NCBI RefSeq assembly: GCF_000317575.1
Contig: NC_019748.1
Span: 2,062,001 to 2,126,000 of the forward strand
Source: Stanieria cyanosphaera PCC 7437
GTDB taxonomy: Bacteria; Cyanobacteriota; Cyanobacteriia; Cyanobacteriales; Xenococcaceae
Reading direction: 5' to 3'
Length of the DNA stretch: 64,000 bases
Shown piece by piece: positions 6,439 through 57,579 of this stretch. Made by a program: the position numbers and the translations under genes. The first letter of the stretch is position 1, and every line of letters starts with the position of its first letter. Below the pieces are notes generated by a model that saw nothing but the letters and a program-made list of their open reading frames with translations, had not been told where the DNA came from and did no database searches.

Positions 6439-6529
6439 AGATGTTTTTATACCTAAGATCAGATCTCTTTGTTAATTATTGTAATAGGTTAGTTATCTAG
6501 GGTTGAAACCGAATTCATCCGTTGGAGTG

Positions 6530-7321
6530 TCAAAGCTTATACCTAACATTGCTAATTACAAAGCCACTTTTTGGGATAGTTGGCATTTTTGACAAACTAA
6601 TTGCTAAATTTTGTTCTGGGAGATTATATTCCAAAGCTTGAGTAAGAAAATTCAGCGTGACTTTCATTACTTTGATCGTAATCCATTCTCCCGCACAGCG
6701 ATGATTGGTGTAATAATCTCCTCCTCCTTGGGGAATAAAATTAAACTGACTTCCATTCCAATGACGAAATCGTTCTGGCTCAAAAGCTTCTGGATTTTCC
6801 CATATTTGAGGATCGTGATTAGTGCCGTATAAATCTAGTAACACCTTTCTTCCTTGAGAAAAATGATATCCTTGCCAATCAAAATCTTGACGAACTATAG
6901 CTGCTGTAAAAGGAAAAAACGGATAAAATCGGCGCACTTCTTGAACAAACCACTCATAATATTCGTTTTCTTCGCTATTTGGTAGTTTTTGTTGACATTC
7001 AGGATGTTCGTATAGAGCCAAGGCAGCAAAGGTTATGTATCTAGCGATCGCAACAATCGGTCGTATAATATTGATCAATTCAACAGCAGCAGTATGTTTA
7101 TTGAGTAATTGCCCATCTAAATCTCGATGCCAAGCAATCACGTATGCTGCGCTATCTTCAGGTATTTTTAACTGATTATTACGCACCTGTTCAATAATAT
7201 CTTCAATCCACTTTTCCGATTTTTGTCTGCTTAGTCTTCCTTGCCAATGCTTTAAACCCACCGCTCCCGAAGCATCAATCATTGCCTCTAATTCCTTAGT
7301 TCTTTGTTCTACCTGCGATTC
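6530..7321 (-). pseudogene. C-terminal remnant of a CYP152 (fatty-acid peroxygenase) P450
   Basis: The 250-residue open frame from the ATG at 7282 aligns by eye with roughly residues 170-417 of P450-BSbeta-type peroxygenases, which use H2O2 to hydroxylate fatty acids. Seen are the I-helix region VELINIIRPIVAI with the Arg-Pro pair that binds the fatty-acid carboxylate, an ExxR-type VQEVRRFYPF, LLDLYGTNHDPQIWENPEAF, and the haem loop IPQGGGDYYTNHRCAGEW with its cysteine. Homology continues upstream of the ATG (RTKELEAMIDA) to an in-frame TAA at 7322-7324. The N-terminal 40%, including part of the substrate channel, is absent, and I find no trace of it in any frame up to 7794. I call it a truncated, probably non-functional gene. 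Confidence 0.75.
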
Positions 7322-7794
7322 TTATTAAGATACAACTAAGATACAAACGCGATCGCTCTGGTTGCTGGCAGGGAAAGACAAAGTTATATTTTTACTAATT
7401 TGAGTTGAGCTAAATAGAAGCAAAATTGAGCAAAGATATATGCTGTTAGTAGCTTGAGATTTAATTAATAGGTTAATAGTTTTTCAGTTTCATCTTACTG
7501 GGTTTAAAGATAGTACTCTTCTATCGAAAGTGAGATCAGGGAGTTTAGATTTCGATCAAACTTAATTATCCTTTTATTTGGCTGGAAAAAATGAGATAAA
7601 AATGCGTTTTAAAATGATGTTTAACTATTAAAAAAATTAACGTTAATTTATATTTGTGAGCTTTCACTTTCCTCTGCAAATAAATATTTGATGTCATAAA
7701 TGGGCTTAAAGCTTTAACTTTAGTCAAAAGCGATCGCGCTCCATATTAAATAATCATTTGAATCTTTGCTCCTGATTAATTATTTATTTTTTGG
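7322..7794. other. gene-free gap upstream of the P450 remnant
   Basis: AT-rich with two HIP1 octamers (near 7349 and 7731). I see no credible ORF, tRNA or terminator. It presumably holds the eroded 5' part of the P450 gene and sequence downstream of the kinase gene. Confidence 0.5.
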
Positions 7795-8883
7795 CTATTC
7801 AAGCTCAGTTTTTTTCACACAGTTATTAAAAATATTACATAAACCATTAATATAAGGAGAATGCCAGGCTAAAATAACACTAATAATAGAAAAAACTAAA
7901 CAAATTAAGACAATTATTTGCGTTTTTTTTGTTTTATTTTTAACTGGTTCAACCGTATTTTCTAATGAATAATTATCAGAAAAAGGCTCTAAAAATGTTG
8001 TTGGAGTTAAAGAAGCGTAAGCAAAATTATCGGTTGAAATTGTTGACAAAGCCATTAAAACTTCTTGAGCAGATTGATAGCGTTCTTGAGGAACTCTTGC
8101 TAGCATTTTATCAATAATATTACCAAAATCTTCTCTTATAGTCACAAAATCTTGCCAGTACCATTTCAGCTTAAAATTATCAAAAAAAGTTTGAGGATGT
8201 TTACCAATTAATAATACTAAAGCAGTGACTGCTAAAGCATAAAGATCGCTATTAAAATAGTATTTGCCTTCATTAATTTGTTCGCTTGGAGAATAACCAA
8301 TCTTACCTACTGCCGTTGGTATTTGTAGTGAATTATGGGAAGCAGTCAGTTGAGTAATAGCTTGTTTATTAACTAAACCAAAATCAATCAGCATTGGCTT
8401 ATCTGAGCCAATCGGAAGCATAATGTTATCTGGACTAATATCGCGATGAATAATATTATGAGCGTGAATATAACTTAATACTGGTAATAAATCTTTAAGC
8501 CATTGAATTACTTCCGTTTCAGAGAAAGTTTTTCCTTCTTGTTGGCGTTGTTGCAGCAGTTCGGCATAAGTATAACCATCAATATACTCTTGTACCAGCA
8601 ATAATCGTCCTAATTCAGTAAACCAGCCTAAAAATTTAGGAATTTGGGGATGATCAATTTTATTTAAGACTCTTGCTTCTCTTTCAAATAATTCTCGCGA
8701 TTTATTGACAAAACTTGCTTCTAAATCTCGCGGTGCAAACTCTTTAAGCACACAAAGTTTATTAAAACGTTGTTCGTCTGCTACCAAATAGGTACGACCC
8801 ATACCACCTTGTCCTATGGTTCTTTTAACTCGGTAGCGTCGTTCAATTAAAGTTCCTGGTAATATCTCTGATAGATAGTCCAC
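7795..8883 (-). CDS. membrane-anchored Ser/Thr protein kinase
   Basis: This is a Hanks-type kinase of the sort used in cyanobacterial signalling. The 362-residue product has a glycine loop GQGGMGRTYLV (24-34), catalytic lysine K47 (VLKEF), the catalytic loop HRDISPDNIM (146-155), DFG at 167-169 and the activation segment to about IGYSPSEQ. After a short Thr/Pro linker there is one transmembrane helix (about 322-341) and a 20-residue outside tail with two cysteines (NGLCNIFNNC). It lacks the pentapeptide, WD40 or FGE sensory domains often fused to cyanobacterial kinases, so what it senses is unclear. The start is GTG (MDYLSEIL), with no good Shine-Dalgarno. It ends by itself, so is probably monocistronic. 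Confidence 0.88.
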   Translation of the reverse strand: MDYLSEILPGTLIERRYRVKRTIGQGGMGRTYLVADEQRFNKLCVLKEFAPRDLEASFVNKSRELFEREARVLNKIDHPQIPKFLGWFTELGRLLLVQEYIDGYTYAELLQQRQQEGKTFSETEVIQWLKDLLPVLSYIHAHNIIHRDISPDNIMLPIGSDKPMLIDFGLVNKQAITQLTASHNSLQIPTAVGKIGYSPSEQINEGKYYFNSDLYALAVTALVLLIGKHPQTFFDNFKLKWYWQDFVTIREDFGNIIDKMLARVPQERYQSAQEVLMALSTISTDNFAYASLTPTTFLEPFSDNYSLENTVEPVKNKTKKTQIIVLICLVFSIISVILAWHSPYINGLCNIFNNCVKKTELE

Positions 8884-8966: not shown

Positions 8967-9941
8967 TTACTTTCCTTTAATACCAGAAACTTTAAGAATG
9001 TCTGTAATTGTTGAACAGTAATTTTTTAAACCAAAGGTAGCAGGATTGACAGGATTTTGATAGATAAAATGGCGATATTCTAAAGAAAACCTACTCCAAG
9101 AATCCATCTGAATTTTAAATACTTTGATTAAAAAATTAGCCAATTCAATCGAAAGAGGAATACGTCCATAAATTCTTTTATTTAAATAATGACATATTTC
9201 TGCGATCGCTTGATTAATTGTGGTGGGGTTATTACCTAAAACTAGTTTTTTGACTCCTATTTCTTGTTGCCATTGACTTAAGTTAATTTGCGGGTTAGCT
9301 ACTAAATAATTAACAATAGTTGCAATGTCTTGAGCATGGATAAAATGAAAACTGCCATCGGCTTTTAACCAACGAATTAAATCAATCCAACGTAATACTT
9401 CTGGTAAACCCGAGGAAAGATGAGATATAGGTTTGTTCTCACTGCCTCCCACTACTAAAGTTGGAAAGACAGCAATAATTTTTTCTGCAATTTCTAACTC
9501 GGATAATTTAGTAAAACATTGATATTTAGTCCGAATATAATCTGTTCCGTACTGCTCCGCTTCGGGTAAAAGTTGTTGATTGCGGTCTAAAATACTAGCT
9601 GTAGAAAAATAAATTACTTCCTCACAAATTTCGGGATTAAGCATCTTTAATAAAGCAAAAGTTTTCCTGACATTAATGTCATACGCTTCTGTCGTCCCAC
9701 CCCAAGCAGTAGCAATTAAAATAGCAATATTAATTTGATTAGATAATAAATCTCGATACTTTTCAATCTCTTGCAAATCGCCTTGAAGAAGATGAATTCC
9801 CGAACGAGCTTGATAGTCAAATTTCAATTTATCAGGATTTCTAACTAGTAAAAATAATTCGTGGTCTGTTTCTTTAATTAAACTTTCGGTAATATAATGT
9901 CCGATGCACCCACTCGCACCTGTAATAAAAATTCCCTTCAT
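8967..9941 (-). CDS. NAD(P)-dependent epimerase/dehydratase (extended SDR)
   Basis: The product begins with the Rossmann motif GIFITGASGCIGHYI (GxxGxxG) and continues with LLQGDL, a typical Asp before the second strand. The catalytic region has FSTASIL and YGTDYIRTKYQ, where Y-x3-K is YIRTK. These are marks of the extended short-chain dehydrogenase family acting on nucleotide sugars or related substrates. The C-terminal half (IPLSIELANFLIKVFKIQMDSWSRFSLEYRHF) diverges from well-known epimerases and resembles unassigned cyanobacterial family members. The start is ATG. It stands alone between the kinase and the toxin-antitoxin remnant. Confidence 0.8.
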   Translation of the reverse strand: MKGIFITGASGCIGHYITESLIKETDHELFLLVRNPDKLKFDYQARSGIHLLQGDLQEIEKYRDLLSNQINIAILIATAWGGTTEAYDINVRKTFALLKMLNPEICEEVIYFSTASILDRNQQLLPEAEQYGTDYIRTKYQCFTKLSELEIAEKIIAVFPTLVVGGSENKPISHLSSGLPEVLRWIDLIRWLKADGSFHFIHAQDIATIVNYLVANPQINLSQWQQEIGVKKLVLGNNPTTINQAIAEICHYLNKRIYGRIPLSIELANFLIKVFKIQMDSWSRFSLEYRHFIYQNPVNPATFGLKNYCSTITDILKVSGIKGK

Positions 9942-44705: not shown

Positions 44706-45266
44706 ATGAATAAATTATTTAAAAAATGGTCGCTACTGATACCTGTAACTGCTCTATGTTTAATCGGAGCAATGTCTTTGTCTTCTGAAAAAGCTCTCAG
44801 TAATTCTTCAACAGTTACAGATGATTCTAAAAATATTGCCTACGCCAGTGTTTGGGATCGAGAAACAGAACTAAATTATTCAGGAACATTGAATATGAGT
44901 GTATATCGCAGTCCATCCTGCGGTTGTTGTGGAGAATGGGTAAAACACGCAAAAAAACATGGTTTTAAAATTAAAGATATTAAAACCGATAATATGGAAA
45001 CACTGAAACAAAAATATAATGTGCCTCTAGAGCTAGCATCTTGTCATACAACTATTATTGATGGTTATGTCATGGAAGGACACATCCCCGCAGATGACAT
45101 TAAACGCTTTCTGAAAGAAAAACCCCAATCCGTTGGTTTAACTGTACCTGGAATGCCTTTAGGAACACCAGGAATGGAAGCGGGAGATAAAAAACAACCA
45201 TTTCAAGTATTAGCATTTAACAATCAGGGTGAAATTGAAGTATTCAAAGAATATCAATCTTATTAA
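44706..45266 (+). CDS. exported DUF411 metal-binding protein
   Basis: The product has a signal peptide (LLIPVTALCLIGAMSL) and a DUF411 core: SVYRSPSCGCCGEWVKHAKKHGF with Cys72, Cys74 and Cys75, MKQKYNVP-like (here LKQKYNVPLELASCHTTIIDGYVMEGHIPADDI) with Cys113 and the conserved His, and GVTVPGMP-type ending (LTVPGMPLGTPGMEAG). DUF411 proteins bind metal, often copper, and are usually encoded next to copper efflux or oxidase genes. Here a multicopper oxidase follows after 20 nt and a MerR-type operator precedes. A role in periplasmic copper capture is inferred. Confidence 0.86.
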   Translation: MNKLFKKWSLLIPVTALCLIGAMSLSSEKALSNSSTVTDDSKNIAYASVWDRETELNYSGTLNMSVYRSPSCGCCGEWVKHAKKHGFKIKDIKTDNMETLKQKYNVPLELASCHTTIIDGYVMEGHIPADDIKRFLKEKPQSVGLTVPGMPLGTPGMEAGDKKQPFQVLAFNNQGEIEVFKEYQSY

Positions 45267-45286
45267 TTACCCAATAGCTTTGCAAT

Positions 45287-46765
45287 ATGGTTAAACTTAA
45301 CCGTCGTAAATTTATTGTTTTGGGGACTGTCGGGGCAGGAGTAGCTGTAATCAGTAATTGGCTATCGCAAGAAAGCATTTCTAGCCAACCTTTGTCTCAA
45401 TCATCTCTTAATCTTTCTTCTTTATACCAAAGCAGCAATGGCTTATTAGAACTAGATTTAGAAGCGAAAGAAAGTGTAGTAGATTTAGGTGGAAAACAAG
45501 CATATCTCTTAACTTATAACGGACAAGTTCCTGCACCGCGTTTAGAAGCAAAACCAGGAGATAAGGTTCGTATTCACTTCACTAACAATCTTGCTCAACC
45601 GACTAACATTCACTATCACGGTTTACACATTCCCATTACAGGTAATGCCGATAATGTTTTCCTTAATATTGAACCAAGAGAAAAACTAACCTACGAATTT
45701 CAGATTCCAACCAATCATCCTTCGGGTACATTTTGGTATCATCCTCACTTGCACGGTATGACGGCAGAGCAGTTGTTTGGAGGTTTAGCGGGTTTATTTA
45801 TCATCCGTGGAGAAATAGACGAAATTCCCGAAATTAAGGCAGCAAAAGAAGAATTTTTAGTATTGCAAGATTTTTCCTTAGACGAAGAAGGAAGGCTTTT
45901 ATCCTCGATGCATATGTCCCTAATGATGGGACGAGAAGGAGAGTTAATTACGGTAAATGGTCAAATAAATCCTAGTTTGTCTATATCTGCTAATGGTTTA
46001 CTGCGCTTGAGAATTCTCAATGCTTCTACCTCTCGTTTTTATCGACTGATGATAAAAAATCATTCTTTTGATCAGATTGCTACTGACGGCAATGCATTAA
46101 ATGAACCTATAGAAGTTAATGAATTATTATTAACACCAGGACAACGAGCCGATGTTTTAGTCAAGGGAAATCAAGAACCGTCACAATATCGTTTACTTAA
46201 CTTACCCTACGATCGCGGTAGTATGGGCATGATGGGGGGTGGAATGATGGGTGGTAGAGGTATGGGTATGATGGGTGGAAATCACCTCGATGCACCTATA
46301 ACTATAGCAACGATAAACTATCAATCCTCTGTACAATCTCTTCCTCTACCAACTAAGTTTACTACGATCTCTGCATTACCAAAACCTGAGATAGTTAGAA
46401 GTTTTGAACTCAATCATGGTATGAATCCTATGGTGGGTATGGCTTTTTTAATTAATGGGCAGCCTTACAATAAAAACAGCATGGATACTATAGTTAAACT
46501 CAATACTATCGAAGATTGGGAAATAACTAATACTGACGTAATGGATCATCCCTTTCATATTCACGGCAATGCTTTTCAAGTTATTAGTCGGAATGGTCAA
46601 CCAGAATCATTACTTGCTTGGCGAGATACTGTTTTAGTGCCTAGGGGTGAAACCGTGCGCATTCGCACCTCTTTCCGCGATTTTGTGGGGAAAACTGTTT
46701 ATCACTGCCATATTTTCGACCACGAAGATTTAGGCATGATGGGTAACTTAGTGATTGAAGCGTAA
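45287..46765 (+). CDS. TAT-exported multicopper oxidase (CueO-like)
   Basis: The enzyme oxidises substrates, probably Cu(I), using O2 in the periplasm. Its N-terminus has the twin-arginine motif NRRKFIVLG (residue 5-13). All copper ligands are visible: IHYHGLHI and WYHPHLHG in the first cupredoxin domain, and HPFHIHGNAF and HCHIFDHEDLGMM in the last, including the T1 Cys-His pair and an axial Met. A Met/Gly-rich segment (SMGMMGGGMMGGRGMGMMGG) in the middle resembles the methionine-rich copper loop of CueO. It is 20 nt after the DUF411 gene, a copper-handling pair. Confidence 0.92.
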   Translation: MVKLNRRKFIVLGTVGAGVAVISNWLSQESISSQPLSQSSLNLSSLYQSSNGLLELDLEAKESVVDLGGKQAYLLTYNGQVPAPRLEAKPGDKVRIHFTNNLAQPTNIHYHGLHIPITGNADNVFLNIEPREKLTYEFQIPTNHPSGTFWYHPHLHGMTAEQLFGGLAGLFIIRGEIDEIPEIKAAKEEFLVLQDFSLDEEGRLLSSMHMSLMMGREGELITVNGQINPSLSISANGLLRLRILNASTSRFYRLMIKNHSFDQIATDGNALNEPIEVNELLLTPGQRADVLVKGNQEPSQYRLLNLPYDRGSMGMMGGGMMGGRGMGMMGGNHLDAPITIATINYQSSVQSLPLPTKFTTISALPKPEIVRSFELNHGMNPMVGMAFLINGQPYNKNSMDTIVKLNTIEDWEITNTDVMDHPFHIHGNAFQVISRNGQPESLLAWRDTVLVPRGETVRIRTSFRDFVGKTVYHCHIFDHEDLGMMGNLVIEA

Positions 46766-46925: not shown

Positions 46926-47009
46926 CATGAAAATTATTTATCAAAATTAACGAACTTTGGTTAAATAAGATACATCCTTCTTAAAAAGCTCTGCTTTGCG
47001 GTGAGTGCT

Positions 47010-48722
47010 ATGACCAAAGCCAAAACTCGTAACTTCTCCTTAATTCCAATGCCAGGTTTGCAAAAATTGCTGTCTTACCATCCAACGTGGTTGCGGGGAG
47101 ATGTATTAGCTGGTTTGACAGTAGCAGCCTATTTAATTCCTCAGTGTATGGCTTATGGAGAGTTGGCAGGAGTTGAACCAGTAGCGGGTTTATGGGCAAT
47201 TTTACCACCGATGGTGATTTATACTTTCTTTGGCTCTTCACCTCAACTTTCAATTGGTCCTGAGTCTAGTACCGCCGTCATGACAGCAGTTGCGATCGCG
47301 CCTTTAGCAGCAGCTAAAAGTGATGCTTATAGTAGTCTTGCTGCTTTACTAGCAATGATTGTGGGTGTTATTTGTATTGTTGGTTATCTGGGTCGATTAG
47401 GTTTTTTAGCTAATTTATTATCGAAGCCGATCTTAATTGGTTACATGGCTGGTATTGCTTTAATTATGATTGGCGGACAACTGGGTAAAATTGGCAAGAT
47501 TGAGATTGAGTCAAATGCTTTTTTTAGTCAAGTTAGTGAATTCATCGGCAAGCTACAACTGGCTCATACTCCTACTTTTATTTTAGGAATTTTAGTTCTA
47601 ATATTTTTATTTGCTTTCCAGCGTCGTTTTCCTAATTTACCTATTCCCTTAATTGCCGTTTTACTCTCTACAGTAGCGGTAGCAATTTTTAATTTGGATC
47701 ATCGTGGTGTGGCTGTTGTGGGAGAGATTCCTGCTGGTTTACCTCATTTTGTGATTCCCCAAGTGTCGGTTAAAGAGATAAGTTCTTTGGTAGCTTCGGC
47801 TGTCGGAATTGCTATTGTTGGTTATTCTGATAATGTGTTGACAGCAAGAGCCTTTGCTAATCGCAACCATTATAAAATTGATGCCAATCAAGAACTGTTA
47901 GCTTTGGGTGTGGCTAATTTTGGCAATGGATTGATGCAGGGATTTCCTATTAGTAGTAGTGGCAGTCGTACTGTGATTGGAGATTCATTAGGAAGCAAAA
48001 GTCAGCTATTTTCTTTGGTGGCGATGGTGGCAGTAATTTTTGTCTTGTTATTTTTACGCCCTGTTTTGGCATTATTCCCCAAAGCTGCTTTAGGCGCGAT
48101 TGTGATCTATGCTGCAACCAAACTAATCGATGTTGCTGAATTTATCAGACTTTATCGCTTTCGTCGTAGTGAGTTTATTTTGGCTATAGTAACTACCATT
48201 GCCGTATTAATCACCGATATTTTAGTAGGAGTAGGAGTTGCAGTTGGTTTATCTGTAATTGAGCTATTTTCTAGAGTTGCTCGCCCCCACGATGCCGTAT
48301 TAGGTACAGTTCCTGGTTTAGCTGGACTTCATGATATCGAGGATTGGGAAGGTGCAACAACTATTCCTGGATTGGTTATTTACCGCTATGATGCACCTTT
48401 GTGTTTTGCTAATGCGGAGGATTTTAAAAGACGATCGCTTGAAGCGATTGAAGCAGAACTAACTCCTGTGGAATGGTTTGTCCTAAATATGGAAGCTAAT
48501 GTCGAAATTGATATTACTGCGATTGATACTTTATTCGAGTTAAGAGATGAATTAGCTGCTCAAAATATTACCTTTGCTATGTCACGAGTTAAGCAAGATC
48601 TATATCTTGAACTCAAACGAGCAGGGTTTCTTAAAAATTTTCCAGCCGAACATATTTACCCTACTTTAGCTGAGGCGATCGCAGCTTTTGAACAACGTCA
48701 TCTACAGACAAAGCAAAATTAG
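47010..48722 (+). CDS. SulP family anion transporter with STAS domain
   Basis: SulP proteins carry sulfate, bicarbonate or other anions. The product has the family N-terminus WLRGDVLAGLTVAAYLIPQCMAYGELAGVEPVAGLWAILPPMVIYTFFGSSPQLSIGPES, about 12-14 helices, and a C-terminal STAS domain (GLVIYRYDAPLCFANAEDFKRR to LYLELKRAGFL). The sequence is nearer to sulfate-permease members than to the BicA bicarbonate transporter. Its place directly before the CO2-uptake operon makes bicarbonate possible, which is only context. The frame opens from a GTG at 47001; I take the ATG three codons later, with GGTGAG upstream. Confidence 0.85.
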   Translation: MTKAKTRNFSLIPMPGLQKLLSYHPTWLRGDVLAGLTVAAYLIPQCMAYGELAGVEPVAGLWAILPPMVIYTFFGSSPQLSIGPESSTAVMTAVAIAPLAAAKSDAYSSLAALLAMIVGVICIVGYLGRLGFLANLLSKPILIGYMAGIALIMIGGQLGKIGKIEIESNAFFSQVSEFIGKLQLAHTPTFILGILVLIFLFAFQRRFPNLPIPLIAVLLSTVAVAIFNLDHRGVAVVGEIPAGLPHFVIPQVSVKEISSLVASAVGIAIVGYSDNVLTARAFANRNHYKIDANQELLALGVANFGNGLMQGFPISSSGSRTVIGDSLGSKSQLFSLVAMVAVIFVLLFLRPVLALFPKAALGAIVIYAATKLIDVAEFIRLYRFRRSEFILAIVTTIAVLITDILVGVGVAVGLSVIELFSRVARPHDAVLGTVPGLAGLHDIEDWEGATTIPGLVIYRYDAPLCFANAEDFKRRSLEAIEAELTPVEWFVLNMEANVEIDITAIDTLFELRDELAAQNITFAMSRVKQDLYLELKRAGFLKNFPAEHIYPTLAEAIAAFEQRHLQTKQN

Positions 48723-48901
48723 TTTCACGCGCGATCGCTACTTTGGGATTTGCCATTTTCTTAAAGCTCAAACTCTACTCTTACAACAATATGGTTTACC
48801 TACCGCAGTATAATCTGAACTGATGTTATTTATTTATATATCCTTATCATTGTCATAAAACAATTATATTTTATTATTCATAGACTAAATTCTATAATGA
48901 T

Positions 48902-48953: not shown

Positions 48954-50816
48954 ATGAATGAGATATTTAGTCAGACTATCTGGCTAGTACCTTTATACGC
49001 TTTAGTAGGTGCGATGCTAGCTATACCTTGGTCGCCAGGAATTATTCGTCAGACGGGACCTAGACCATCGGGTTATATTAATGCTTTAATGACTTTCATA
49101 GCGTTGAGCCATAGTTTGTTGGCTCTCTCAGAAATATGGCATCAACCAGTTCAATATTTATCATTTCAATGGCTTCATGCTGCTGATTTAAATATCTCTT
49201 TCGATCTAGTAATTTCTCCAATCACTATTGGGGCATTGGTTTTAATTACTGGTTTAAATCTCGCTGCCCAAATTTACGCCATTGGTTACATGGAAATGGA
49301 TTGGGGTTGGGCGCGTTTCTACTCGCTACTAGCTTTGTTTGAAGCAGGAATGTCTACTTTAGTTTTGTGTAATTCCCTCTTCTTTAGTTATGTAGTCTTA
49401 GAAATTCTGACTCTCGGTACATACTTATTAATTGGATTGTGGTTCAACCAATCTTTAGTGGTAACTGGTGCAAGGGATGCTTTTTTAACTAAACGGGTAG
49501 GAGATTTAATTCTGCTGATGGCGGTAGTTGCTTTATTACCTTTAGCAGGGACTTGGAATTATACTGAATTAGCTCAATGGGCAAAAACCACCACAATTGA
49601 CCCTAATATAGCAACTTTACTTTGTTTAGCTTTAATTGCTGGCCCTTTGGGTAAATGCGCTCAATTTCCTCTGCATCTTTGGTTAGATGAGGCGATGGAA
49701 GGACCAATGCCCGCCACTATTTTACGGAATACCATTGTTGTTTCTACAGGTGCTTGGGTATTAATCAAATTACAACCCGTGTTTACTTTATCGCCAGTCG
49801 CTTCTACGGTAATGATTGGCATCGGTTCAGTAACTGCCATTGGTGCTTCTCTAATTGCGATCGCACAAATTGATATTAAACGTTCTCTTTCCTATTCTGT
49901 CAGTGCCTACATGGGTTTAGTTTTCATTGCAGTAGGTACACAACAAGATGAAACTGCCTTGAGATTACTCTTTACTTATGCGATCGCTATGTCGTTGTTG
50001 GTAATGAGTATTGGTGGCGTGGTTTTAAATAATATTACCCAAGATCTAACCAAATACGGCGGTTTATGGTCACGTCGCCCCATATCTGGAATTTGTTACT
50101 TAGTTGGTGCAGCTTCTTTAGTTGCTTTTCCTCCTTTAGGCTGTTTTTGGACATTAACCGAAATGGCAGATAACCTTTGGAATACTCATCCCTGGTTAGT
50201 AGGAGTATTGGTGATCGTTAATGGTTTAACTGCTTTTAGCATTACTCGTGAATTTAGTCTTATTTTTGGTGGTAAACCAAAACAAATGACAGTTCGTTCT
50301 CCAGAAGGCTTATGGGCGTTGGTTTTACCGATGACATTTGGAATGGGATTTGCCTTGCACGTACCGATTTTATTACATCAATGGAATTTGTTACCTGAGT
50401 GGGAAAATCTCAATTTAACTGTTGCTATTCCCTTAGTTATTTCTACTTTGGTAGGTGCAGGTGCTTCGGCATTCATTTATCTCAATGAAAAAATTACTAA
50501 ACCAATTGAATTCAAACCCAAAGCTGTACAAGACTTTTTTGCTTACGACTTATATACTGCTCAACTTTATCGCGTAACAATTGTTTTTGTAGTCGGTTTA
50601 GTTTCTCAAATTATTTATTGGTTTGACCGCTATTTAGTTGACGGAGTAATTAATTTAGTTGGGTTGGCTACAATTTTTAGTGGTGAAAGTTTAAAATACA
50701 ACGTTTCTGGACAAACTCAATTTTATTTTCTGTCAATTTTCTTGGGAGTTATCTTATTCGTAGGAGTAGTTTGTTTTCCCATCATCTCTCAATTTTCCTT
50801 CGTACTTTTTCCATAA
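48954..50816 (+). CDS. ndhF3: NDH-1 subunit NdhF3 (CO2-uptake module)
   Basis: NdhF3 is the distal proton-pumping membrane subunit of NDH-1MS, the inducible thylakoid CO2-uptake complex. The 620-residue product is an antiporter-like Nqo12/NuoL family protein. It has FYSLLALFEAGMSTLVLCNSLFFSYVVLEILTLGTYLLIG (the conserved Glu of TM5), GPLGKCAQFPLHLWLDEAMEGPMPATILRNTIVV in place of the usual ...SAL in TM7-8, QIDIKRSLSYSVSAYMGLVF and a C-terminal lateral helix region. The truncated TM8 motif and the following cupA mark it as the CO2-uptake variant rather than NdhF1. Between F3 and F4 the choice rests on the neighbouring fasciclin cupS. Confidence 0.85.
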   Translation: MNEIFSQTIWLVPLYALVGAMLAIPWSPGIIRQTGPRPSGYINALMTFIALSHSLLALSEIWHQPVQYLSFQWLHAADLNISFDLVISPITIGALVLITGLNLAAQIYAIGYMEMDWGWARFYSLLALFEAGMSTLVLCNSLFFSYVVLEILTLGTYLLIGLWFNQSLVVTGARDAFLTKRVGDLILLMAVVALLPLAGTWNYTELAQWAKTTTIDPNIATLLCLALIAGPLGKCAQFPLHLWLDEAMEGPMPATILRNTIVVSTGAWVLIKLQPVFTLSPVASTVMIGIGSVTAIGASLIAIAQIDIKRSLSYSVSAYMGLVFIAVGTQQDETALRLLFTYAIAMSLLVMSIGGVVLNNITQDLTKYGGLWSRRPISGICYLVGAASLVAFPPLGCFWTLTEMADNLWNTHPWLVGVLVIVNGLTAFSITREFSLIFGGKPKQMTVRSPEGLWALVLPMTFGMGFALHVPILLHQWNLLPEWENLNLTVAIPLVISTLVGAGASAFIYLNEKITKPIEFKPKAVQDFFAYDLYTAQLYRVTIVFVVGLVSQIIYWFDRYLVDGVINLVGLATIFSGESLKYNVSGQTQFYFLSIFLGVILFVGVVCFPIISQFSFVLFP

Positions 50817-50862
50817 CAAACTATTTTTATTTAGAAATTAAAAAAAATTAATTCAAGAGACA

Positions 50863-51582
50863 ATGAAAAACACAAAAGGACAAATGGATTTTTCTCGACG
50901 CAAATTAATGAAGTTTGGAGCAGGCTTTTTAGGGACAGCTACATTAGCAAGTGTTTTAGGAATAAATCTTACTAATTCAAAACCAGCAATTGCTCAAAAT
51001 GAACTAACTTGTGACCAAGCCTTAGCAAAATTAATGGAAGGTAATCAGCGTTTTATTCAAAATAAACGGATGAATCCTCATCAATCTTTAGAATATTTAC
51101 AATCAATCTCTGAGGAACAAAAACCTTTTGCAGCGATGTTAGGTTGCGCAGATTCTCGACTTCCTCTGGAAGCGATTTTCGATCAAGGATTTGGTGATTT
51201 ATTTGTGGTTCGTGATGCAGGTAATGTAGCTACAGAAGAAGAAACTGGCAGTTTGGAATTTGGTACTTTAGTGTTGGGTGCTAAAGTAATTATGGTCATG
51301 GGTCATTATGGTTGTGGTGCAATCAAAGCTACTTTACAAGGTGAAGAAGTTCCAGGCACAATCGGTAGTATTTTGGCACAGATTGAACCTGCTGTAAAAG
51401 ATTTTCAAGGACAACAAGAAGATAAAGAAGCACTTAAAAAAGCAACTGAAGCTAATGTAAAGTATCAAGTAAATAAATTAAAACAATCTTCTGTTTTATC
51501 GGAATTAATTGCTGCAAATCAATTAAAAATTGTTGGAGGTTATTTTAATTTTAAAACAGGGGAAGTAACTGTAGTTTCATAA
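50863..51582 (+). CDS. TAT-exported beta-class carbonic anhydrase
   Basis: This enzyme interconverts CO2 and bicarbonate outside the cytoplasm. The N-terminal SRRKLMKFGAGFLGTATLASVLG is a twin-arginine signal (Arg12-Arg13), with likely cleavage at AIAQ-N. Zinc ligands and dyad are complete: C95, D97 and R99 in GCADSRLP, H148 and C151 in GHYGCGAIKA. The length matches EcaB-type beta-CAs. It sits 46 nt after ndhF3 and 147 nt before ndhD3, inside the NDH-1MS operon, an unusual position. A thylakoid-associated EcaB has been reported to work with CupA/CupB in Synechocystis, so a role beside this complex is plausible. Confidence 0.9.
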   Translation: MKNTKGQMDFSRRKLMKFGAGFLGTATLASVLGINLTNSKPAIAQNELTCDQALAKLMEGNQRFIQNKRMNPHQSLEYLQSISEEQKPFAAMLGCADSRLPLEAIFDQGFGDLFVVRDAGNVATEEETGSLEFGTLVLGAKVIMVMGHYGCGAIKATLQGEEVPGTIGSILAQIEPAVKDFQGQQEDKEALKKATEANVKYQVNKLKQSSVLSELIAANQLKIVGGYFNFKTGEVTVVS

Positions 51583-51729
51583 TATCTACTATTGGTTATT
51601 AATCATTACTTTTGTCTACTTGTTTAAATAGTCGCTAATCAAAAAAAATAACTCAAGCGATCGCAAAAGCTATCCCACAAACTAACTAAACATAACTAAT
51701 GAAAAATAACAAAACACAAAGGACAAACA

Positions 51730-53250
51730 ATGCTTAGTTTTCTACTCTGGTTACCTATTATTGGGGCTAGTATTATCGGTTTTTTACCCCTAAAAATTGA
51801 ATCGGCGCGTCTCAGACAAATTACAACAGTTTTTGCAGTTATTATTTTTGTTTGGACAATCTGGTTATTAACTCAGTTTAATTTAAGTACTTCTGGATGG
51901 CAATTTTCAGAATATTTACCTTGGGCTGAACCAATTGGTTTAAGTTATAGTTTGGCAGTTGATGGTTTATCATTACCTTTGCTTGCTTTGAATGGCTTAC
52001 TTACCATTATTGCTATTTATAGTATTGGAGAAAATGTTGAACGTCCCCGTCTTTATTACTCTTTAATTCTGTTAATTAATGCAGGCATAACTGGGGCTTT
52101 AGTTGCTCAGAATTTATTACTATTCGTAATCTTCTATGAGCTAGAATTGATTCCTTTTTACTTAATGATTGCAATTTGGGGAGGAGAAAAACGAGGCTAT
52201 GCTTCAATTAAATTTCTGCTTTATACAGCCGTATCAGGATTATTAGTTTTAGCTGCCTTTTTAGGGATTGCTTTCCTCAATGGTGCTACCAGTTTCGATT
52301 ATGATCTTATCACCACTCAAGGATTATCTTTAAACACACAACTGATTTTACTTACTGTTTTATTAGTCGGATTTGGAATTAAAATTCCTTTAGTTCCTTT
52401 GCATACTTGGTTGCCTGATGCCTATACAGAAGCTTCTTCAGCCGTTACCATTCTGTTAGGCGGGATTTTAGCTAAACTCGGAACTTATGGTTTGATTCGC
52501 TTTGGTTTACAACTATTTCCCGAAGCTTGGTCAATTGTAGCCCCTGGATTAGCAGTTATCGGTACAATTAGTGTACTTTATGGAGCTTTAAGTGCGATCG
52601 CACAAAAAGATATCAAACGCATGGTAGCCTATAGTTCCATTGGTCACATGGGTTATATTCTAGTAGCTGTTGCTGCTGGTACGGAATTAAGTATTCTCGG
52701 TGCAGTAGCACAAATGATCGCTCATGGTTTGATTCTCGCTTTATTGTTCCATTTGGTAGGTATTGTCGAACGCAAAGTAGGTACTCGCGATCTAGATGTT
52801 CTTAATGGTTTGATGAATCCTATTCGTGGTTTGCCTCTTACCAGTGCCTTATTGATTATGGCAGGTATGGCTAGTGCAGGTATTCCTGGTTTGGTGGGAT
52901 TTGTAGCTGAATTTATTATTTTTCAGGGTAGTTTTGCTACGTTCCCCATTCCTACTTTACTTTGCATCATTGCTTCGGGTCTTACAGCGGTTTACTTTGT
53001 CATTCTGCTTAATCGTACTTGTTTCGGCAAATTAGATAATAAATTGGCATATTATCCTCCAGTTTTGCGTTCTGAAACTATTCCTGCCTTTGTTTTAACT
53101 GTAATTATTCTTTTCTTGGGCATTCAACCAAACTGGTTACTACGTTGGATTGAACCAACGACGGATTTATTAGCAGTCAATATTTCTAATAATCAAATTG
53201 AAGAAATTGCTGTTCAACAACTACCAGCAAACGATCTTCTATTGAATTAG
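51730..53250 (+). CDS. ndhD3: NDH-1 subunit NdhD3 (CO2-uptake module)
   Basis: NdhD3 is the antiporter-like NuoM homologue of NDH-1MS. The 506-residue product has LSYSLAVDGLSLPLLALNGLLTIIAIYS, the Glu in LFVIFYELELIPFYLMIAIWGG (TM5), VPLHTWLPDAYTEASSAVTILLGGILAKLGTYG (TM7-8), AQKDIKRMVAYSSIGHMGYI with the central lysine, and about 14 helices in all. Compared with NdhF3 the proton-channel residues are complete. It is followed after 11 nt by an OB-fold protein gene. The F3/D3/CupA order matches the Synechocystis operon apart from the two extra genes between. Confidence 0.87.
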   Translation: MLSFLLWLPIIGASIIGFLPLKIESARLRQITTVFAVIIFVWTIWLLTQFNLSTSGWQFSEYLPWAEPIGLSYSLAVDGLSLPLLALNGLLTIIAIYSIGENVERPRLYYSLILLINAGITGALVAQNLLLFVIFYELELIPFYLMIAIWGGEKRGYASIKFLLYTAVSGLLVLAAFLGIAFLNGATSFDYDLITTQGLSLNTQLILLTVLLVGFGIKIPLVPLHTWLPDAYTEASSAVTILLGGILAKLGTYGLIRFGLQLFPEAWSIVAPGLAVIGTISVLYGALSAIAQKDIKRMVAYSSIGHMGYILVAVAAGTELSILGAVAQMIAHGLILALLFHLVGIVERKVGTRDLDVLNGLMNPIRGLPLTSALLIMAGMASAGIPGLVGFVAEFIIFQGSFATFPIPTLLCIIASGLTAVYFVILLNRTCFGKLDNKLAYYPPVLRSETIPAFVLTVIILFLGIQPNWLLRWIEPTTDLLAVNISNNQIEEIAVQQLPANDLLLN

Positions 53251-53261
53251 GAAATTTTGTG

Positions 53262-53642
53262 ATGAAATTAACTTTATCTTTATTGACGGTTCTGTCTATT
53301 GTTTCGGTGTTAACCATTCCAACCCAATTGTCTGCCCAAACTCCCATTGAAAACTTAAAAAGTATGCAGGGTGTTACTATTTCAGGTCAAGTTGAAAGCG
53401 TGGTTGGCAATAATTTTACTCTTAACGACGGAACAGGAGAGATAATTGTGGATGCAGGGCCTCGTTGGTGGCATCAAATCGATTTAAATACTGGGGAGTC
53501 TGTCACTGTGGTAGGAGAAATGGGTCGAGATGAATTTGATGCTTTCTCCATCACCCGTGAAAATGGCGAGGTAATCGATATTCGACCATCTCAAGGTCCT
53601 CCTCCTTGGTCTGGAGGTAACAGAAGAGACATTCAAAGATAA
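53262..53642 (+). CDS. exported OB-fold protein (YdeI/BOF-like)
   Basis: The 126-residue product has a signal peptide (LTLSLLTVLSIVSVLTIPTQLSAQ) and one OB-like beta barrel. The barrel has MQGVTISGQVESVVGNNFTLNDGTGEIIVDAGPRWW, GESVTVVGEMGRDEFDAFSI and NGEVIDIRPSQ. The Gly-Gln-Val start and DGTGEI turn resemble the YgiW/YdeI (BOF) family. A GTG one codon upstream is possible, but AGGA is placed well for the ATG. It lies 11 nt after ndhD3 and 134 nt before cupA, in the CO2-uptake operon. I know of no such protein in the standard NDH-1MS set. Confidence 0.83.
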   Translation: MKLTLSLLTVLSIVSVLTIPTQLSAQTPIENLKSMQGVTISGQVESVVGNNFTLNDGTGEIIVDAGPRWWHQIDLNTGESVTVVGEMGRDEFDAFSITRENGEVIDIRPSQGPPPWSGGNRRDIQR

Positions 53643-53679
53643 ATACAGCAATTCAAGAGTATAAACAATTAATATTCAT

Positions 53680-53703
53680 TTGTTAGGTGGGCATTGCCTA
53701 CCC
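53680..53703. repeat. GGGCAttGCC-type imperfect palindrome
   Basis: TAGGTGGGCATTGCCTACCCTA is an imperfect inverted repeat; a perfect relative, AGATGGGCATTGCCCATCT, occurs at 59738-59756. Both lie between genes. Confidence 0.55.
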
Positions 53704-53776
53704 TAATCGCAAAGAATTGTCCGCAGTTTTTACGCAGATAGAGTGAAGAATATAAATAATTAACTATCAACAAACT

Positions 53777-55081
53777 ATGGTACAAACTCCAATTAAACAA
53801 CCTACAGCTAAACTTCCTCCTTCTACCCATCAATTTGCTGATGTTATTCATCGTCTTGAAGCGGGTGGATCGATGTTACCCGATACGCCAGAAAACTTGA
53901 TGCAGATTATTGGTATTTATAAAGCTTATGCAGTACCGATGGATTTTTATTGGCGCGACTTATTGTATATTGCTGAACGAGTCTTTTTAGAACCACTTCC
54001 CTTCTTTAAATATTTTCTGCCCAAAGAATATCTAGACTTGCACAATCACTATGCAGGTGATGATGCCGACTTGAGAATTTGGCGAGGAGAAGCAACCGCC
54101 CATCCAGAATTATTGGAATTTATGGAGAAGGGTAAAACCTTCAAAATGCCAAAACTTTTCCATCACTTATGGCACGATCGCATTAATATGGAATTTGCTG
54201 AAGCTTGTATGCGGGCAATGCTTTGGCATGGTAGAGATATGGGTTGGGGTAAGTTTGATGCTTATCTCGATACCGAAGAGTATAAAGCTAATGCAGACAG
54301 GGCAATCAAAGCTTATTTTAAATATAATCCTGCTATGTTGGGGTTATATAAACTTTTCCCCGATATGTTCCTCGAACAAGTCAGACAGCTATCTTACTAT
54401 TCCAACCTAGGTTTATTCTGGGAAGTAATGGCACCAGTGTTCTTTGAAATGTCGGATATCTATGACGAAGGTGGTTTTAAAGGTGTTCCTGATGCCATGA
54501 ATTTTCTAGTTAATGGCATTTTTGCGATCGCAGGTCGTCCAATTTATCATCATGTTTACATTCGGGGTGAATGCTACGAAATTATCCCCAAGTCTAAAGG
54601 TTTTACCTGGCTATATGAAGCTGCCTTACCCTACGTCGAGGCTGTCTTTTATCGTACCGCACCTTTCCGTGGCACAAAATCCTATAATGCCCAAGCTAAA
54701 CAAGTTCCCGATGAACAAAAAGATTTTCACTACGGCATTTTATACGCTGATGTCTTTCCTGTAGGTACGGCAGGAATTCCTCCGACATTATTAATGGATG
54801 ATATGTATCATTTTCTGCCAGATTATTTGCAGAAATACTATCAAGAACACTGTCGAGGTGAAGAAGATGTTTTGATTCAATTGGGAATTACTTTCCAGCG
54901 CTCAATGTATAACGTAACTTCAGCAGTAATTCAAGCTTTGCGTCAAGCTTTGTTGTATCCTTTAGACGATCAAAACCCTAAACATTTAATGAAAAATCGC
55001 GCCTTTTTTGAAGCCCAAATGGATCGTTTCTTGCGTCCTGAAGCTCGTTTAAAAGACATTCAATCCCAAGATTATCGCTAG
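53777..55081 (+). CDS. cupA: CO2 hydration protein CupA (ChpY)
   Basis: CupA sits on NdhF3/NdhD3 in NDH-1MS and hydrates CO2 to bicarbonate on the cytoplasmic side, using energy from electron transfer. The 434-residue soluble product has the family regions GGSMLPDTPENLMQIIGIYKAYAVPMDFYWRDLLYIAE, NHYAGDDADLRIWRGEATAHPELL, FHHLWHDRINMEFAEACMRAMLWHGRDMG and DVFPVGTAGIPPTLLMDDMYHFLP. The conserved His/Arg residues are plausible zinc ligands. It follows the OB-fold gene in the operon. I prefer CupA to CupB because a fasciclin (CupS-like) gene lies just downstream. Confidence 0.9.
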   Translation: MVQTPIKQPTAKLPPSTHQFADVIHRLEAGGSMLPDTPENLMQIIGIYKAYAVPMDFYWRDLLYIAERVFLEPLPFFKYFLPKEYLDLHNHYAGDDADLRIWRGEATAHPELLEFMEKGKTFKMPKLFHHLWHDRINMEFAEACMRAMLWHGRDMGWGKFDAYLDTEEYKANADRAIKAYFKYNPAMLGLYKLFPDMFLEQVRQLSYYSNLGLFWEVMAPVFFEMSDIYDEGGFKGVPDAMNFLVNGIFAIAGRPIYHHVYIRGECYEIIPKSKGFTWLYEAALPYVEAVFYRTAPFRGTKSYNAQAKQVPDEQKDFHYGILYADVFPVGTAGIPPTLLMDDMYHFLPDYLQKYYQEHCRGEEDVLIQLGITFQRSMYNVTSAVIQALRQALLYPLDDQNPKHLMKNRAFFEAQMDRFLRPEARLKDIQSQDYR

Positions 55082-55090
55082 TTTTAATTA

Positions 55091-55143
55091 GGTAATAAGT
55101 AATAGATAATAATTATTGATTGTCAAGCTTGTTACTTATTACC
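55091..55143 (+). repeat. 12-bp inverted repeat after cupA
   Basis: GGTAATAAGTAA (55091-55102) pairs perfectly with TTACTTATTACC (55132-55143) across a 29-nt loop. It lies 10 nt after the cupA stop and just before a small ORF. There is no T-tract, so it may protect or process mRNA rather than terminate. Confidence 0.7.
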
Positions 55144-55168
55144 AACTGACAGATTATTTATACCTAAA

Positions 55169-55270
55169 ATGGTTAGTATGAACGAGCGAAAGGAATTTTT
55201 CGAGATTAGTTTTATTTCCGCGATCGCCTTTATTCTGTCTTTGATTATTGCATTATTTACTTGGTTATAA
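55169..55270 (+). CDS. 33-residue membrane microprotein downstream of cupA
   Basis: The frame begins ATG GTT AGT ATG AAC and encodes MVSMNERKEFFEISFISAIAF followed by ILSLIIALFTWL, i.e. a charged 8-residue head and one hydrophobic helix of about 20 residues. The second ATG (MNERKEF) is an alternative start. No clear Shine-Dalgarno is seen. It is on the same strand as the CO2-uptake genes, 88 nt after cupA, and ends before a bidirectional hairpin. Length and form are like the single-helix NDH-1 subunits (NdhP/NdhQ type), but it is not recognisable as either. Too short for routine gene callers. Confidence 0.5.
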   Translation: MVSMNERKEFFEISFISAIAFILSLIIALFTWL

Positions 55271-55397: not shown

Positions 55398-55799
55398 TTA
55401 ACCTATTAAAATAACGTTATCAATGACATGAATAACTCCATTATCTGCCTCAATATCTGCTGCGATTACTGTGGCATTTTTAACTTCAAAACTATCCGAA
55501 CAATCAATAGAAATTGGTGAACCCTCTAAAGAAATAACCGAATTAATTTTAGCTAAATCTTCTTTCATTAACTTACCTGAAACAACATGATAAGTTAAAA
55601 TTCTTGCTAACTGAGGAATGTTTTGCACCAAAGTTTGAATTGTTCCTGGGGGTAGTTTGGCAAAAGCATCATCAGTAGGAGCAAAGACTGTAAAAGGTCC
55701 AGGACTTTTTAAAGCATCGACTAAATTAGCAGCTTTAACCGCAGTTACTAATGTACTAAATCCTTCTGTATTAACAGCAATATCAACAATATCAGGCAT
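55398..55799 (-). CDS. cupS: fasciclin-domain protein, CupS-like
   Basis: The 133-residue product is one fasciclin (FAS1) domain without a signal peptide: [59 protein letters not shown] and the end [15 protein letters not shown]. CupS (Synechocystis sll1735) is a FAS1 protein of the same size and is the small subunit of NDH-1MS, in the same operon. Here it is on the opposite strand, convergent with the cupA side. Stand-alone FAS1 proteins are common in cyanobacteria, so identity as CupS rests on location and the absence of a signal peptide. Confidence 0.75.
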
Positions 55800-56090: not shown

Positions 56091-57419
56091 CTACTCATTC
56101 ATATTTTTATAAGTAGCTACAGAAGAAGGTGAAATACGATTCAGATAGCGGAAAATCCAATATTTTAAAACTGTATCTAAAATTACAGGAAAAGTAGCAA
56201 TAAAGAGAAAGTTAAAATCCCTATTTTCTGGCAAACCTAAATGATTAGCAATTCCTTCTAAAATCACTTCCCATCCATGAGGAGAGTGATAACCAACAAA
56301 CATATCTGTTAACAGGATAATCAAAAAAGCTTTAGCAGAATCGCTTAAACCATAAACAATTTCATCTAAAAAAGATTTAACTATACCAATTTCTTTTTGG
56401 CAAGCAAAAATAATACCAGCAAAAGCAATTAGAGAAAAAATATCAGAAAAAACATTACTAACAGCATTTATACCATGTTCACGATATTCTTCTGCAATTT
56501 CGCCAGCTTTTTCTTGTAATCTGATTTCGACTTCTTCTTCAGAAAGACGAGGAGCTAAACCAAGTAAATTTTGAAAATGAAGATTTTCTTCATAGTGCCG
56601 TAACTCGATAAAAGCTTCTTCTTCTAAATCTTTATTAATAAAAAGTATTTGTTCTCTTTCGGCAAAATATTCTTTGACAAGAGGTGTTACTAAAAAAGTT
56701 TTGGCAATTTGATGAGTCATTAAGGGAACAATAATCAAAATCAGCAAAAATCTAATAGAAATAGCTGTTTTATTACGAGAGCGACGAAATTTTTTTAAAA
56801 CTTCTTCTTCGGTAGTTTCTGATTGGGGGTCTATCTCCTGTTTGATTCGATTAATTGTTCTCATAAAAGAGCGTGGTAAAACCCCTGTTTTATCTGAAAT
56901 AGTTTCTAAGTTAGGGTCTTTATTCTTAGGATTGGTTGAATTTTTATTATTTTTTGGTAAGGTAAGTTGATTTTTGGCAACAGCAGAATCAATTGTGATC
57001 TTTGAGTCTGAATTAACAGCTATAACATCTTTATTTTGATACCGACTAACAATTTGATCGATAAAATTAAGTTTTTCGACAATTGTTAAATTAGGTTGAG
57101 GTGGCAATCCATTACTATAAGTAATTGCTACTTGATTGTTGTTAGGTTGAGTATCAGAAAAGATTAAAAAAGAACGACTAAGCTTAAATTCTGTTAATCT
57201 GAACTTAATTGTTTTAAGATAATTATCAACATCAGTACGAAAAACTTTGTAAACACTATCAGAGTAACCCATAGTTTGAGTAAGTACTGGTTGACCATTA
57301 AAATGATCATCTTCGATCGCTTTAATTTTTATAGCAGCACGATAAGCTTGATCTAAAGCTCTTTCCGGAGTAGCAGACAACCAGTTTCTTCCGCCACTAA
57401 TAATGTTTTGTAATTTCAT
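56091..57419 (-). CDS. pxcA: proton extrusion protein PxcA (CemA homologue)
   Basis: PxcA (PcxA, formerly CotA) is needed for light-induced, Na-dependent proton release and is linked to CO2/HCO3- use and acid balance. The 442-residue product has the family N-terminus LQNIISGGRNWLSATPERALDQAYRAAIKIKAIEDDHFNGQPV, a variable Asn/Lys-rich middle, and a C-terminal membrane part. That part has IRFLLILIIVPLMTHQIAKTFLVTPLV, an acidic loop, SDIFSLIAFAGIIF, AFLIILLTDMFVGYHSPHGWEVIL and TFPVILDTVLKYWIFRYLNRISPSSVATY, the CemA signature. The start is ATG; a TTG three codons earlier also fits. It sits beside the CO2-uptake genes, consistent with a shared purpose. Confidence 0.92.
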   Translation of the reverse strand: MKLQNIISGGRNWLSATPERALDQAYRAAIKIKAIEDDHFNGQPVLTQTMGYSDSVYKVFRTDVDNYLKTIKFRLTEFKLSRSFLIFSDTQPNNNQVAITYSNGLPPQPNLTIVEKLNFIDQIVSRYQNKDVIAVNSDSKITIDSAVAKNQLTLPKNNKNSTNPKNKDPNLETISDKTGVLPRSFMRTINRIKQEIDPQSETTEEEVLKKFRRSRNKTAISIRFLLILIIVPLMTHQIAKTFLVTPLVKEYFAEREQILFINKDLEEEAFIELRHYEENLHFQNLLGLAPRLSEEEVEIRLQEKAGEIAEEYREHGINAVSNVFSDIFSLIAFAGIIFACQKEIGIVKSFLDEIVYGLSDSAKAFLIILLTDMFVGYHSPHGWEVILEGIANHLGLPENRDFNFLFIATFPVILDTVLKYWIFRYLNRISPSSVATYKNMNE

Positions 57420-57579
57420 TTGCGTCAATTGATTCTTACCTAATCAAGAACTATCAGATTTTTTTAGACGAACTTATCTACAACAATAATTATGATACTT
57501 AGTGTAGTGTAGATAGTATGTTAGCAAAATACTTTCCAGCACGCTGTATTAAAAATACCGATTTAAATTCAAGAGCGTA

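Follow-up and report, generated by a model that had tools for sequence, protein, structure and literature searches.

Does a carbonic anhydrase (CA) encoded within the operon of the CO2-hydrating NDH-1MS complex belong to that complex, or is it only a neighbour? The question is raised by a locus of Stanieria cyanosphaera PCC 7437 located in a stretch of 64,000 nucleotides (contig NC_019748.1, positions 2,062,001 to 2,126,000; hereafter the window), where a CA gene stands between ndhF3 and ndhD3. Genomic analysis of this operon and its counterparts indicates that the ndhF3-CA-ndhD3 arrangement is widespread, far beyond chance. On balance, the EcaB-type CA with its twin-arginine signal appears to be a long-standing, optional component of the NDH-1MS operon, likely positioned opposite the CO2-hydrating subunit CupA and equilibrating bicarbonate and CO2 there.

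The operon and its signal region are arranged as follows:

48954-50816, + strand: ndhF3, antiporter-like NDH-1MS subunit (TIGR01960, 1003.6 bits, cut-off 588.7; 6tjv_F, E 4e-227)
50863-51582, + strand: EcaB-like beta-carbonic anhydrase of 239 residues with a predicted export signal (Pro_CA, 141.4 bits, cut-off 25.7)
50863-50994, + strand: putative N-terminal twin-arginine signal region of the CA (SRRKLMKF, a hydrophobic stretch and AIA-Q, read by eye)
51730-53250, + strand: ndhD3, antiporter-like NDH-1MS subunit (NF005611, 936.9 bits, cut-off 764)
53259-53642, + strand: small OB-fold (BOF/YgiW-like) open reading frame, exported-looking, 127 residues, GTG start (NF033674, 36.3, cut-off 35)
53777-55081, + strand: cupA (chpY), CO2-hydrating NDH-1MS subunit (TIGR01964, 789.7 bits, cut-off 293.7; 6tjv_P, E 5e-216)
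55398-55799, - strand: cupS, FAS1-domain NDH-1MS subunit, convergent with cupA (best match 6tjv_Q, E 7e-54; also 2mxa)

All four core NDH-1MS genes (ndhF3, ndhD3, cupA and cupS) are thereby present. Because NdhF3 retains the tunnel-mouth residues R37, Y41 and E114 and CupA the zinc-site residues H130 and R135 (numbering of the NDH-1MS structure paper, PMC6981117), the complex is expected, from these residues, to be a working NDH-1MS. The interval first marked, 48954-55270, extends 189 bases beyond the end of cupA; the OB-fold frame and cupS had gone unmentioned in the first-pass annotation. The successive gaps from ndhF3 through the CA, ndhD3 and the OB-fold gene to cupA measure 46, 147, 8 and 134 bp; no terminator-like sites were found on the + strand in these four gaps, which is compatible with a single transcript and proves nothing.

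The CA itself is predicted to be a beta-class enzyme carrying a twin-arginine export signal, the signal being called by motif inspection (SRRKLMKF, ending AIA-Q) without a signal predictor. The first-pass annotation had described a twin-arginine-type CA with a complete active site between the two subunit genes, and the Pro_CA match, the arginine pair and the five residues C95, D97, R99, H148 and C151 bear this description out. The arginine pair and the five active-site residues (C, D, R, H, C) are invariant in all 33 operon-linked CAs described below, and the same five positions are invariant in an alignment of 28 operon-linked CAs that includes the window's own. The AlphaFold model possesses the beta-CA fold (predicted local distance difference test score, pLDDT, 79.6, with residues 1-42 below 50), and its best match in the PDB is the Mycobacterium tuberculosis beta-CA 2a5v, which is also the best by sequence. 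A lipoprotein attachment site has been reported as hypothetical in EcaB (PMC10096703); a simple pattern for such a site is absent from the window CA and from the copy of Synechocystis sp. PCC 7338, and it is therefore no defining trait of the group.

The distribution of the arrangement was surveyed in 386 genomes of the phylum, searched three times with identical settings. NdhF3 matches at 1e-180 were found in 128 genomes, 117 of which were used, while 11 with matches scoring like NdhF4 were excluded. The ndhF3 gene has no adjacent ndhD3 in 12 of the 117 and is adjacent to it on one strand in 105; in these pairs (the window's and 104 others), gaps of at least 60 bases were searched with 85 CA proteins. 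An intact CA occupies 33 of the 105 gaps and a decayed CA seven more, two of the latter showing internal deletions (G195, G289) and five being fragments (G185, G328, G074, G103 and G131, the last being the weakest match at E 4e-4). No CA was found in the other 65 gaps, 18 of which, being shorter than 60 bases, fell outside the search; the CA-free gaps are 9-442 bp long. Intact copies are spread over 18 of 60 genera and 7 of 24 families, rising to 22 genera and 9 families when decayed copies are included, and reversed ndhF3-ndhD3 gaps used as a control gave no CA match. The first-pass annotation had proposed a genetic link, to be abandoned if the gene order occurred in this strain only; with intact CAs in 33 of 105 operons, the link is real and recurs well outside Stanieria.

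A named collection of at least 80 CA loci, non-cyanobacteria included, displays the same order in 21 of the 80 loci listed: Microcystis wesenbergii, Microcystis aeruginosa, Nostoc, Calothrix, Microcoleus, Oscillatoria princeps, Laspinema, Westiellopsis, Scytonema, Brasilonema, Symploca, Aphanothece and others. One surveyed genome (G157, locus L148) possesses two tandem CA genes in the gap, the second being diverged (51% to the window CA).

The tightness of the link was examined from the side of the CA. The CA lineage was defined as the 40 best CA rows, from 39 genomes, with E up to 1.8e-62, a cut set after viewing the list; the rows below it start at 3e-59, are presumably paralogues and were kept outside the tree. 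This lineage sits in the ndhF3-ndhD3 gap in 33 of the 39 genomes and outside it in six (G014, G076, G123, G133, G145 and G231); in G231 the gene precedes ndhF3 by about 350 bp. All 39 genomes have an NdhF3 match, that of G145 being doubtful (59%, no adjacent ndhD3). As a control, no CA lies within 8 kb of any of the 33 NdhF4-like places listed, although a CA match occurs somewhere in 24 of the 33 genomes concerned; within the genome sample, the link is thus specific to the inducible complex. In the 33 intact operons, CA distances follow those of NdhF3 (r 0.74) and of NdhD3 (r 0.72), with p 0.0001, compared with r 0.95 between NdhF3 and NdhD3; the evolution of the CA thus mostly follows that of the operon, more loosely than the two subunits follow one another. 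The fixed partnership that had been suggested for the CA and the complex does not hold up, given the 65 gaps in which no CA was found, the seven decaying copies and the six lineage genomes with the CA elsewhere. In one of these six, G123, a pcxA-like (CemA) gene (L142, 5108-6313) is located about 2 kb from the displaced CA.

Whether the CA was gained once or repeatedly was considered on a tree of NdhF3 plus NdhD3 (FastTree, midpoint root). Scored as a label, with G195 counted as CA and G289 as none, the CA requires 17 changes on this tree, compared with a shuffled mean of 28.9, and 19 when decayed copies are included. Such counts do not discriminate between a single gain followed by many losses and repeated insertion. 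The seven decayed copies in the gap indicate repeated loss in place, and an early insertion followed by many losses and some moves is favoured; re-insertion of the CA by recombination between operons is possible.

Where does EcaB of Synechocystis stand in relation to these operon-borne enzymes? EcaB of Synechocystis sp. PCC 6803 (Slr0051) is, like the window CA, a beta-class enzyme with a twin-arginine signal (PMC11360081); in the present comparison, it was represented by its near relatives in G076 (Synechocystis sp. PCC 7338) and G386. The search returned five genomes of the genus (G080, G076, G386, G014 and G093), which differ in the placement of the gene. In G080 the CA lies inside the ndhF3-ndhD3 gap, in G076 and G386 it occupies another locus, beside a gene we take to be purU-like, and G093 has a CcaA-like CA only. 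In G014 (L140, - strand) the CA (9015-9731) directly precedes SbtA (Sbt_1, 7592-8752), followed by an SbtB-like P-II protein (7169-7534) and a sodium/proton exchanger (5556-6941).

Two trees of the CA were built: a quick tree of 95 rows from 122 extracted CA proteins, and a careful tree of 72 rows (71 of the 95 and one added), from which 24 near-duplicates, distant rows and outgroups were left out. On the careful tree, with bootstrap values not fully settled, one clade (100/99) unites the Synechocystis CAs lying outside the operon, the displaced copy of G123 and the CAs that G080, G253 and Aphanothece carry within the operon. Two named Microcystis stand beside G253 on the quick tree. The window CA groups with G143, G105, G133 and Chlorogloea purpurea in a separate, strongly supported subclade (100/98). 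Support is weak for the branches joining the two subclades, and both lie within one CA family. A single clade for all operon-borne CAs was rejected, with eight changes on the careful tree and 0% of the bootstraps giving one. Because the Synechocystis copies share the 100/99 clade with operon-borne CAs, the simplest reading of the tree is that EcaB would be an NDH-1MS operon CA that has moved. The link to EcaB is closer than the first-pass annotation had supposed, as CAs of the EcaB lineage nest with operon-borne ones. The gene is named ecaB in Microcystis as MAE15130 (PMC4681089). No statement placing ecaB between ndhF3 and ndhD3 was found in the available parts of the open-access literature, and the gene order may well have been depicted elsewhere.

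Compared with known systems, the locus is a variant of the EcaB/NDH-1MS association and no new kind of system. The window protein and the near relatives of Synechocystis EcaB are members of one CA family, with 49% identity between the window CA and the PCC 7338 copy; the window CA lies inside the NDH-1MS operon, whereas the G076 and G386 copies lie elsewhere. The Synechocystis operon, ndhF3-ndhD3-cupA-cupS(-cupAR), has the four core genes and key residues in common with the window, in which, in contrast, a CA and an OB-fold gene are inserted and cupS is on the opposite strand. The carboxysomal beta-CA CcaA (5SWC, the PCC 6803 enzyme; PMC10536570), with which the CcaA proteins of G076 and G386 are identical at 212 and 210 of 220 residues, shares the beta-CA fold, and its similarity to the window CA is far lower (E 3e-11). 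The organisms with a CA in the operon include Microcystis, Nostoc, Calothrix and a Synechocystis-genus species. A functional parallel is offered by CAH3 of Chlamydomonas, an alpha-class CA of the thylakoid lumen that makes CO2 from bicarbonate for use across the membrane. CAH3 serves Rubisco in the pyrenoid, not a CO2-hydrating pump, and is not known to be related by descent to the beta-CA.

What could an exported CA contribute to a complex whose CO2-hydrating subunit lies on the cytoplasmic face? According to the structure paper, CupA is indeed on that face, and a non-polar tunnel in NdhF3 could bring CO2 from the luminal side (PMC6981117); a 2026 review calls this luminal proposal solely structural (PMC13249358). 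EcaB has been described as residing mostly on thylakoids and as being linked to NDH-1MS/MS' (PMC10096703, PMC11360081, PMC9283085). The favoured role of the CA can be formulated in sequential order: (i) the enzyme would sit across the membrane from CupA, in the thylakoid lumen and possibly also in the periplasm; (ii) there it would quickly equilibrate bicarbonate and CO2; (iii) in the acidic lumen, leaked bicarbonate and a proton would yield CO2 through the CA; (iv) this CO2 would enter the proposed NdhF3 tunnel; and (v) CupA would rehydrate it to bicarbonate on the cytoplasmic side. The place of the CA in the lumen, the way in which carbon would flow and any contact with the complex are our inference. 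A stricter version, in which NDH-1MS and the CA form a two-enzyme relay with the CA docked at the luminal mouth of the NdhF3 tunnel and dehydrating bicarbonate, CO2 passing through NdhF3 and CupA rehydrating it, is unlikely. Were it true, the pair would in effect be a redox-driven pump for bicarbonate recovery, and the CA would be an unrecognised luminal partner, lost or moved in many strains. The position of the CA bears on whether CupA draws its CO2 from the lumen or from the cytoplasm: an export-tagged CA between membrane-subunit genes in 33 of 105 operons constitutes independent genomic evidence that something on the far side of the membrane is relevant to the complex. At the same time, the poorly understood EcaB gains a plausible origin.

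Several points weigh against an EcaB-type CA working opposite CupA as a member of the operon. NDH-1MS can do without a CA, because none was found in 65 of 105 operons (18 of them with gaps too short for the search), and the CA tree is not resolved deeply enough to show a single origin for all the operon-borne copies. An exported-type CA also adjoins the constitutive complex in a Chamaesiphon locus of the named collection (L055, 5190-10681), where it stands behind an ndhF-ndhD-cup set; the link is therefore not confined to NDH-1MS. This locus was considered as an NDH-1MS operon ending in a CA and rejected, since its Cup protein is CupB-like (59% to CupB, 41% to CupA), and thus of the constitutive complex. 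The Chamaesiphon CA stands on a long branch close to the clade of paralogues and is for that reason probably a separate recruitment. The CA-sbtA-sbtB order in G014 fits a general role in external supply of inorganic carbon. In Microcystis PCC 7806, transcription of ecaB was unresponsive to raised CO2, and ndhF3 fell slightly (PMC4419860). Earlier studies placed EcaB in the periplasm and saw no activity (PMC9865033), and the main text of the Thermosynechococcus elongatus complex structure paper is without mention of EcaB (PMC6981117). Finally, EcaB has been reported to interact with CupA and CupB (reviewed in PMC10096703), and an exported CA is unable to contact CupA, because the latter lies on the cytoplasmic face. 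For the reported contact to hold, NdhF3 or NdhD3 would have to act as intermediary or part of the enzyme would have to form a second pool; otherwise the finding calls for re-examination.

Part of this evidence suits a different account, possible but less likely, in which only regulation is shared: the CA would serve the response to low CO2 from the periplasm, co-located with the operon as both are needed under limitation of inorganic carbon, with neither contact nor a lumenal role. The mobility of the CA is in line with it, the gene lying outside the gap in 6 of 39 genomes, including before sbtA-sbtB in G014 and upstream of ndhF3 in G231, as are the related CA behind cupB in Chamaesiphon, the 65 operons in which no CA was found and the detection of EcaB in the periplasm by proteomics (PMC10096703). 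The account is harder to reconcile with the retention of the CA in the gap by 33 of 39 genomes, with a CA found between ndhF3 and ndhD3 and beside none of the 33 NdhF4-like places listed, and with reports that most EcaB is thylakoid-associated (PMC10096703, PMC11360081).

The reported interaction of EcaB with CupA/CupB (PMC10096703), together with the cytoplasmic location of CupA (PMC6981117), would also agree with a CA acting directly on CupA from the cytoplasmic face, its arginine pair being a membrane anchor or its export inefficient. This is improbable, as the pair is invariant in all 33 copies and cells with a CA expressed in the cytoplasm die at low CO2 (PMC6981117).

The notion of chance neighbours or of an insertion private to one strain is refuted by the survey and can hardly be maintained: other inserts do occur in these operons (the OB-fold gene of the window and those of L036, L038 and L048, listed below), but an intact CA recurs in the gap in 18 of 60 genera, and decayed copies are found in seven further genomes.

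The ndhD3-cupA gap is a tolerant insertion spot, as the inserts of other operons illustrate:

L036, 12610-13179: cytochrome b561
L038, 12506-13111: CDP-alcohol phosphatidyltransferase
L048, 12467-12775: HTH protein

The OB-fold gene was considered as a member of the conserved set and rejected, since other operons hold these different inserts; it is probably local cargo. Its Pfam BOF score (20.3) is below the cut-off of 25.8. Among the 80 named CA loci, no homologue was found at the stricter cut, and the looser cut gave a single partial match, in L060 (Hydrococcus), located in the same ndhD3-cupA gap (2362-2445; 28 residues, 57%, E 2.5e-5).

Around the operon, the following features were recorded in the window:

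56091-57428, - strand: pcxA, proton extrusion, CemA family, just past cupS
48880-48895, + strand: weak candidate NdhR/CcmR site ATAG-N8-CTAT, its 3' end 58 bp upstream of ndhF3
28757, 31513, 35096, 48880 and 63123: ATAG-N8-CTAT palindromes

The NdhR/CcmR consensus was taken from PMC13249358. Five such palindromes occur in the window, compared with 1.4 expected, and one of 100 shuffles reached five. Of 23 usable loci, the window is the only one in which the strict motif was found ahead of ndhF3 (24 loci were listed, and L154 was dropped as its upstream stretch was uncovered). With one locus in 23 and excess matches across the window, the motif was rejected as support for control of the operon.

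On the same strand as ndhF3 and 231 bp ahead of it is a gene (47001-48722) for a SulP-family anion transporter with a STAS domain. Its score of 132 bits is far below the BicA cut-off of 880, and its identification as BicA was rejected. Further upstream, at 44706-46765, a DUF411 protein gene is followed by one for a multicopper oxidase with a twin-arginine signal, read by eye, and the two perhaps form a copper-handling pair.

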